Source of the DNA: Verrucomicrobiia bacterium
GTDB lineage: Bacteria; Verrucomicrobiota; Verrucomicrobiia; Opitutales; Opitutaceae
Assembly: GCA_011525695.1 (NCBI GenBank)
Contig: WYBX01000032.1
Coordinates: 1-64,000, forward strand
Direction of reading: 5' to 3'
Length of the DNA: 64,000 nt
The stretch's first letter is position 1, and each line of letters starts with the position of its first letter. Below, piece after piece: positions 1-36,429 of the stretch. The notes beneath the pieces were generated by a model. The model was not told where the DNA came from. It worked only from the letters and a program-made list of their open reading frames with translations, and did no database searches. Made by a program: the position numbers and the translations under genes.

Positions 1-102
1 ACCCCGTGTTGCCACGACGCAGTAGCCTTCGGTTGCAGGCGGGTGAACGTTCCGCCTGACGGGGACTTGCACCCCGCTGTGTGGACGCCCTCACAGGCGC
101 AC
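1..102 (-). mobile_element. 5' end of a group IIC intron (partial)
   Basis: Read on the minus strand, the segment starting at 102 begins GTGCGCC, matching the GUGYG 5' consensus of group II introns. It continues with a short hairpin, a GGGGTGCAAGTCCCC element and, near position 20, a GTCGTGGCAACACGG segment. These resemble domain I of class C bacterial introns in order and spacing. The 5' end lies 3 nt beyond a perfect 7-bp hairpin (106-125), the type of site (a terminator-like stem) that class C introns are known to use. The remaining intron, and any reverse transcriptase/maturase, would lie to the left of the window. The call comes from remembered consensus features, not a covariance search. 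Confidence 0.66.
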
Positions 103-247
103 GAGGGCCGTGCTCCGTCACGGCCACGTAGATCGATCCGCTGCGCAGAATGGTTTTCCCATCGGGTTTGTGGACGCCACGGAGGGCGTCCCTCCATGAA
201 GGCCATTCACACCGAGTAATGAGAATCCAGGAATCAAACTTGGATTC
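103..247 (-). repeat. Dispersed palindromic intergenic repeat, copy 1
   Basis: This stretch closely matches 7977-8123 in opposite orientation, including the shared block around GTGGACGCCACGGAG and a GATCGATCCGCTGC block. It contains a perfect stem, GGCCGTG (106-112) with CACGGCC (119-125). Copy 2 has GGCCGGG/CCCGGCC at the same place, a compensatory change that supports a real hairpin. The repeat is interrupted at position 102/103 by the intron-like sequence. No coding potential is evident, and its function is unknown. Confidence 0.8.
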
Positions 248-7976: not shown

Positions 7977-8123
7977 GGCCGGGACGGAGCCCGGCCCTCC
8001 ATGAATCCGGTTCCGATTCCTGGATTCGGACCTTCATTCCTGGACGGACGATCTCCGTGGCGTCCACAAATCCGATGGAAAATTCACTCTGCGGCAGCGG
8101 ATCGATCTTCGTGGCCGGGACGG
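7977..8123 (+). repeat. Dispersed palindromic intergenic repeat, copy 2
   Basis: Matches the reverse complement of 103-247 over nearly its whole length. It starts with a perfect 7-bp stem, GGCCGGG (7977-7983) and CCCGGCC (7990-7996), followed by CTCCATGAATCC. Near its end a second GTGGCCGGGACGG occurs (8111-8123). It occupies most of the 282-bp gap between the rhodanese and the glycosylase-like gene. The continuous sequence here shows what the intron-interrupted copy 1 should look like when empty. Confidence 0.8.
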
Positions 8124-35448: not shown

Positions 35449-36429
35449 CTATCCAATTGCGCGTTGCCGCAGTCCTCGGAGCGTCGCCAGGTCGCCCCAG
35501 TCGGTGCATGCCGGCAGGGGGTGCGGCCCCAAACGTTCGCGCCGGCCGGTACGTCTTCGGTATGCGGCCAGTTGCGCCTCCACAAAGGTGCTACTGCCAA
35601 GCACGGCGCCATCGGTGAAGTAGCGAATCCGACATCGCAAGACAGTCGCGAGCGGCAGTCGACCTCCTTGCGTGAGCACCCGTTGCACTTCCTGCAAAGG
35701 AATGCTGGCAGCATCGCTTCGCGGCTTTCCGCCGGTCCCAAAGAGGATTTCGCGATAGGCAGCCTGCGCATCGTCCCAGGGAACGCCACCGATCGCCAAA
35801 CGGAGGCCGTCCCGCGCAGCGGCGTTGCCGGCAACGGCTTCAGCGTACCCGCAGAAGCGGTAATCCTTTGGATCCGAGACCAGGCCAGCACGGACGCAGT
35901 TCAAATCGATGTAAGCAGCAAGCGGCTGCAACGCCCCCGGCCCCAGCAAGGTGCTCTTGAATCGTTCCGCCCATAGAGTCCCGATGCGGTCGTGGGTCTT
36001 GTTGAACCAGATCGAAAAGCGCTGCTTCACCAGCTTCATGAACTGCGAGACGTCTCCCATCAGTCGCAGTTGACGCTGACGCCACAACACGCCCTCCGGT
36101 CCGTTTTCAGCGAGCTGTTTTTGTATCACCTCCAACCGCGCCGATTGATAGGGCGTGGGCTTTGGGTAAAGAACATGGTAACGACGGAGCAATTCATCAT
36201 CCGACAATGGTTGTTCCCGCGGCGCGCGAACGAGCACATGAAAGTGATTCGCCATGACCGCATAGGTCAGCAGCTGGACACCGCAATAGTCGGCTACCTG
36301 CCAGAGCTGTCGGCGCAGGATCTCCTTCGCGACGTCATCAAACAGGCGTTCCTTGTTAACCGTACGGGTGAAACAGTGGTAAGTTGCCTCGCCCTCTGCT
36401 GCAGGAACCTTGATCCGCGCCTGTCTCAT
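35449..36429 (-). CDS. REP-associated tyrosine transposase (RAYT, Y1/HUH type)
   Basis: A 326-residue HUH single-strand transposase of the IS200-like RAYT group. The His-hydrophobic-His motif is HFH (His62, His64) in YAVMANHFHVLVRAP. The likely nucleophile is Tyr173 in PLAAYIDLNCVRAGL, the segment matching YIxxNPVRAG of the family; QRFSIWFNKTHDRIGTLW and ERFKSTLL also fit. It is flanked by inverted REP-like repeats, as expected for a domesticated RAYT that acts on REP sequences. A charged insertion (about 78-125) and a C-terminal extension make it longer than minimal members. The ATG at 36429 is supported by the domain start. No frame disruption is seen. Confidence 0.88.
   Translation of the reverse strand: MRQARIKVPAAEGEATYHCFTRTVNKERLFDDVAKEILRRQLWQVADYCGVQLLTYAVMANHFHVLVRAPREQPLSDDELLRRYHVLYPKPTPYQSARLEVIQKQLAENGPEGVLWRQRQLRLMGDVSQFMKLVKQRFSIWFNKTHDRIGTLWAERFKSTLLGPGALQPLAAYIDLNCVRAGLVSDPKDYRFCGYAEAVAGNAAARDGLRLAIGGVPWDDAQAAYREILFGTGGKPRSDAASIPLQEVQRVLTQGGRLPLATVLRCRIRYFTDGAVLGSSTFVEAQLAAYRRRTGRRERLGPHPLPACTDWGDLATLRGLRQRAIG

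Follow-up and report, generated by a model that had tools for sequence, protein, structure and literature searches.

A probable REP-like hairpin target for a group IIC intron recently spread in an Opitutaceae genome

The window, the whole stretch of 64,000 nucleotides analysed here, begins with a sequence that stops short against a small perfect hairpin. Is this edge the start of a mobile intron, and if so, what placed the intron there? Position 1 of the window is base 1 of contig C14 in a draft genome of 6.54 Mb and 157 contigs. On the minus strand the hairpin runs from 125 to 106, followed by CTC (105-103) and GTGCG (102-98), the first bases of a sequence that reads GTGCGCCTGTGAGGGCG... from 102 down to position 1. 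An earlier note had described this arrangement of a perfect 7-bp stem-loop, CTC and GTGCG, and reading of the sequence confirms it. The note had also proposed a group IIC intron inserted behind the hairpin of a repeat. We consider it very likely that a mobile group IIC (bacterial class C) intron has recently spread in this genome, with an abundant REP-like hairpin repeat as its target.

The contig edge and its hairpins

The features of the window that bear on this question are as follows.

1..102, minus strand: 5' end of the group IIC intron, start of domain I, GTGCGCCTGTGAGGGCGTCC..., truncated by the contig end at position 1
103..107, minus strand: IBS1 CCCTC, the final five bases of the 5' exon, overlapping the hairpin foot; present at 23/23 junctions and matching EBS1 GAGGG of a relative
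106..125, minus strand: REP-like target hairpin GGCCGTG-ACGGAG-CACGGCC, with a 7-bp stem and a 6-nt loop, from the genome-wide pattern count and DNA folding
172..194, plus strand: second, outward-facing hairpin of the same bipartite repeat, GGACGCC-ACGGAG-GGCGTCC and CTC, empty, then CATGAAGG
7977..7999, plus strand: empty copy of the target hairpin and CTC, with CATGAATCC next at 8000-8008
8043..8065, minus strand: partner of the 7977 hairpin, stem decayed, GGACGCC-ACGGAG-ATCGTCC and GTC

Folded as DNA, the hairpin at 106-125 reaches -8.2 kcal/mol (z -3.1). The bipartite repeat at the window edge has one half (103-125) occupied by the intron and the other (172-194) empty. The copy at 7977-7999, GGCCGGGACGGAGCCCGGCC plus CTC, had been taken as an empty site with the same stem; its family, its CTC and its uninterrupted continuation hold, while "same stem" is slightly loose, as the two stems differ by a compensated pair (GGCCGGG/CCCGGCC vs GGCCGTG/CACGGCC). 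With the contig cut off at position 1, the reverse transcriptase (RT) and the 3' end of the window's own copy lie beyond readable sequence. Only the first 102 nt of the intron are inside the window and domain V lies on other contig ends, which accounts for the lack of any match at gathering score in an Rfam scan of the window; a permissive Rfam scan of positions 1-400 gave chance matches only.

The exact hairpin pattern GGNNNNNACGGAGNNNNNCCCTC occurs 413 times in the genome and its reversed control not once, so the hairpin family is not a product of chance. Fully paired 7-bp stems were found in 108 of 114 sampled copies. The stems fall into the types GGCCGTG/CACGGCC, GGACGCC/GGCGTCC, GGACGAC/GTCGTCC and GGCCGGG/CCCGGCC with a constant loop and tail, which indicates that pairing has been retained while loop and tail stayed fixed. 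The hairpins often form outward-facing pairs with a spacing of about 70 bases, as at 103/172 and 7977/8043 of the window, a likeness to REP dimers (BIMEs). The family thus combines the marks of a REP, namely a short palindrome, high copy number and outward-facing dimers, and its copies in the window are intergenic. No GTAG or CGTC tag was seen in it. Across the taxonomic family, at least one match was found in 57 of 150 genomes, with a maximum of 327 in another genome (G140); the hairpin was absent from five of six sampled congeners.

A RAYT gene was considered as the mover of the repeat and rejected, since none of the five Y1_Tnp genes of the genome has a hairpin in its flanks (to about 1.5 kb). 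A Y1/RAYT-type transposase gene in the window (35449-36429, minus strand, 326 aa) is hairpin-free within about 1.5 kb. The loop GGAG is complementary to the tail CTCC at 106-125 and 172-191 of the window and throughout the repeat family. Y1 transposases use pairing between a guide and the cleavage site. By analogy, the GGAG/CTCC complementarity might hint at how the repeat itself spread.

Intron copies across the genome

A genome search with positions 1-230 of the window found the intron 5' end at 23 places, nearly all of them contig ends, and every one lies directly behind a 7-bp hairpin of this one family plus CTC. The first 89 bases are identical at 21 junctions and differ by one base at the other two; the intron begins with GTGCG in 22 copies and with GTGTG in one, both of which fit the group II consensus GTGYG. 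An identical 76-nt domain V/VI (RF00029, 55 bits, above gathering score) stands at 21 contig ends, supplying the domain V for which the earlier note had asked, and the intron ends after domain VI with CTACCCCTAT. The predicted 3' continuation is also found at the genome level: CATGAATCC or close variants follow the intron end. All 18 distinct 3' exons begin with C, followed mostly by A, T and G, and their first eight bases have much the same base frequencies as those after CTC at 94 empty hairpins. Repeat copies do serve as empty sites, with other hairpins continuing CTC|CATGAA uninterrupted; a strain with this exact locus empty was not found. These junction sequences indicate at least 21 to 23 recent copying events of the intron in this genome, each of them behind a hairpin. 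The earlier reading was right, and the case for it is stronger than the window alone could reveal.

Class C introns insert after intrinsic terminators (Robart et al., 2007, as cited in PMC4424553 and PMC8919778), and the hairpins could therefore be ordinary terminators, the intron a usual terminator-targeting class C element and the repeat family incidental. This is very improbable. The empty sites have CATGAA after CTC in place of a T-tract, and we reject the terminator reading of the target hairpin because the T-tract is lacking; positions 1-400 of the window hold no terminator-like site. All 23 insertions fall within a single repeat family, and introns are found behind each of the two hairpins that face outward, regardless of how the repeat is oriented. 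The GGACGCC-type stem that is empty at 172..194, for example, carries the intron elsewhere in the genome (L009-L015, L021-L023). GGAC stems are found at 15 of 23 introns vs 36 of 94 empty sites (p = 0.03), a post hoc and weak preference. The repeat as the target of the intron remains the reading that we follow.

The assembly itself could also mislead. In a draft of this kind, with almost all junctions at contig ends, shared 5' and domain V ends could be an assembly or binning artefact from contaminating contigs. We regard this as extremely unlikely, as the repeat family seen in the rest of the genome is also present on the host side of the junction contigs, contamination is 1.28%, and a relative has the same element inside contigs of 0.4-1.0 Mb.

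The draft assembly of this genome lacks the intron interior with its RT, EBS1 and EBS3. A near-identical element in some 21-23 copies that short-read assembly does not span is the picture expected, and it is consistent with an unassembled interior that the two RVT_1 genes found in the genome belong to other elements. Alternatively, the multicopy element could be a group IIC derivative that is broken or has no ORF and is moved in trans by an RT encoded elsewhere, for example in a single intact copy. The assembly contains no intact class C RT, its sole class C-like one being a broken fragment on contig C115, and the intron on contig C42 is of a different type. Against this alternative, most 3' ends retain the last codons and the stop of an ORF homologous to the protein of the relative (..GSCAYG* here, ..GSCTYGQSR* there), and an interior of about 1.8 kb in some 23 near-identical copies is exactly what a short-read draft loses. 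We therefore hold the derivative to be unlikely and retain a full-length intron with an unassembled interior.

Two loci were rejected as sources of the intron's protein. C42 carries a different group II intron (D1D4-7, with its own domain V at 44 bits). This intron (L053, G000:C42 2400-4592, minus strand) scores 113 bits with D1D4-7, encodes a 548-aa RT with RVT_N and maturase domains, and lies near a REP-associated-type tyrosine transposase gene at 507-1547 of the contig. On C115 (L054, G000:C115 1-2123) the RT is broken: class C-like remains, 51% identical to the protein of the relative over residues 126-270, are split by an integrase-type transposase gene. At the right end of contig C87 (L042 / L261), the end of another repeat directly adjoins the 28 nt that precede domain V, at the stop codon of the protein. 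The same repeat end is seen at five places, always then followed by G[CT]TA. A second intron type on C87 was rejected, since the upstream sequence is the end of this other repeat; it is probably an insertion sequence inside one intron copy.

A complete relative and the pairing of EBS1 with its target

A complete copy with a group IIC RT is present in a relative of the same family (G007), where a 1953-nt intron on contig C5 encodes an intact 448-aa protein. This intron is 94-96% identical to the multicopy intron over the first 178 nt and 91% identical at the 3' end, and its domain V (RF00029) scores 52.5 bits. The protein contains RVT_1 and GIIM (maturase) domains only, without an endonuclease domain, and scores 381 bits with TIGR04416, above the cut-off. 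Its closest PDB matches are the 7uim/7uin maturase and the GsI-IIC RT (7uim, 6ar1), both of group IIC. Both copies of the element in this relative lie behind ACGGAG hairpins plus CTC, the hairpin having one mismatch and a less stable fold (-3.5 kcal/mol). EBS1 GAGGG in the intron is complementary to IBS1 CCCTC. The second copy (L089, G007:C1:498144-500416) carries numerous small indels in its ORF. In front of it stand a duplicated 5' flank and about the first 219 nt of the intron, the result of either a tandem duplication or an assembly fault.

A wider survey of related introns supports the mechanism set out below. Three related proteins were aligned and the alignment was used to scan GTDB genomes, which gave 80 loci. 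An iterated profile of the first 120 intron bases had 73 matches among these 80 loci and four family loci together, and 70 of the 73 match from the opening positions of the model, so that the start of the intron is located. Of 61 distinct clade sites, 80% have a strong hairpin that ends no more than 8 nt from the 5' junction; among control positions the share is 7%. The five bases aligned to GAGGG of the complete intron were then compared with each intron's own last five 5' exon bases. In 52 related introns, covering 42 distinct combinations, these form on average 4.45 of 5 Watson-Crick pairs, vs a shuffled mean of 1.73, and none of 10,000 shuffles paired as well. EBS1 is identified by this covariation, which also shows it to follow the target. 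The assignment is in accord with a group IIC intron seen by cryo-EM on its DNA stem-loop (PMC10190682).

The insertion model builds on direct observations: both junctions, the target family, the empty sites, the near-identity of the copies, the complete homologue and the covariation of EBS1 with IBS1. By analogy with the intron family, insertion would proceed by reverse splicing into a folded DNA hairpin and target-primed reverse transcription. The spliced intron RNA and its RT/maturase would recognize the shape of an extruded or single-stranded DNA hairpin. At the foot of the hairpin, EBS1 (GAGGG) would pair with IBS1 (CCCTC), and EBS3 would pair with C, the first base of the 3' exon. The RNA would then reverse-splice between CTC and CATGAA, and target-primed reverse transcription would copy the inserted RNA. 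We infer an intact RT somewhere in this genome, probable activity in splicing and retrohoming, and which strand is used for insertion and when. With hundreds of repeat copies, all of those checked being intergenic, insertion should be cheap for the host and the sites should not be exhausted.

REP-type targets in other genomes and known systems

The same habit is seen elsewhere. In Singulisphaera sp. GP187, all 10 mapped copies lie behind CGACGCGGAGCGTCG, which occurs 75 times in the genome and never in reversed form. In Desulfosarcina alkanivorans, 7 of 7 mapped copies lie behind hairpins of the GCGGC...GCCGC plus TCC type, one exact form of which occurs 31 times, often in close outward pairs. 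At several proteobacterial loci (L190, L207 and L196) the intron is inserted behind CGTCATTCC-type palindromes, and by sequence these appear to fit the CGTC-tagged REP superfamily that includes neisserial dRS3 (PMC3733652). Another member of the family has a less similar class C intron (L243, G123:C574, and L244) behind GGCCTCACCGAGGCC plus ACCTC, and in that genome the GGCCTCACCGAGGCC palindrome also stands a short way downstream of a 3' end. We read this as a putative further repeat/intron pair.

A broader proposal, for and against which we see the case as evenly balanced, is that in several phyla class C introns have, in addition to terminators and attC, a distinct standing target in REP-type repeats. 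In this view EBS1 would be tuned to the foot of the host's REP family, and intron and REP would form a commensal pair, with the repeat's copy number setting the carrying capacity for the intron. According to reviews, bacterial group II introns target homing sites, terminators and attC sites (PMC4424553). With every detected copy in one abundant REP-like repeat, and with the Singulisphaera and Desulfosarcina parallels, REP-like repeats would be a fourth kind of safe landing site. Such a repeat offers the intron a ready supply of intergenic landing sites and may help explain high intron copy number without gene disruption. It also supplies many natural EBS1/hairpin pairs for retargeting compact IIC introns. 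In the openly readable literature we found no account in which a class C intron has REP repeats as its principal target.

Insertion behind hairpins is already known for class C introns; the mechanism is of a known kind, and the choice of target is a variation on it. One would less expect an abundant REP-like repeat, lacking the T-tract of a terminator, to be used almost exclusively, and the unrelated Singulisphaera and Desulfosarcina to do likewise. The intron resembles terminator-targeting group IIC introns in its GTGCG 5' end, its domain V/VI and its class C RT without an endonuclease domain. Like them, and like the intron of the E.r. IIC intron-DNA structure (PMC10190682), it is inserted a few bases 3' of a DNA hairpin with an EBS1-IBS1 pairing of about 4-5 bp. 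It differs from the terminator-targeting introns in using a single REP-like repeat of more than 400 copies, without a T-tract, at 23/23 sites. The group IIC-attC introns of integrons (PMC4424553, PMC7923331) similarly target a folded, imperfectly palindromic repeat that is not a terminator, whereas the target here is a dispersed repeat without an integron or attC array.

REPs are targeted by mobile elements, and 2 of the 9 group II introns of Pseudomonas putida KT2440 are listed in REPs (Tobes and Pareja, 2006, PMC1525189). This is a group II intron precedent for REP-type palindromes as targets, although it concerns a minority (22%) of the copies there and all found copies here. The repeat described here differs in its ACGGAG loop and CTC tail and belongs to another phylum. 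The GTAG- and CGTC-tagged REP superfamilies (PMC3733652) are alike in their short hairpins, high copy number and outward-facing heterodimers of two stem types, and CGTC REPs share with the present family that a dedicated transposase was not found adjacent to them. In contrast to both superfamilies, the repeat of this genome has a conserved ACGGAG loop, a CTCCA tail and paired stems that vary freely.
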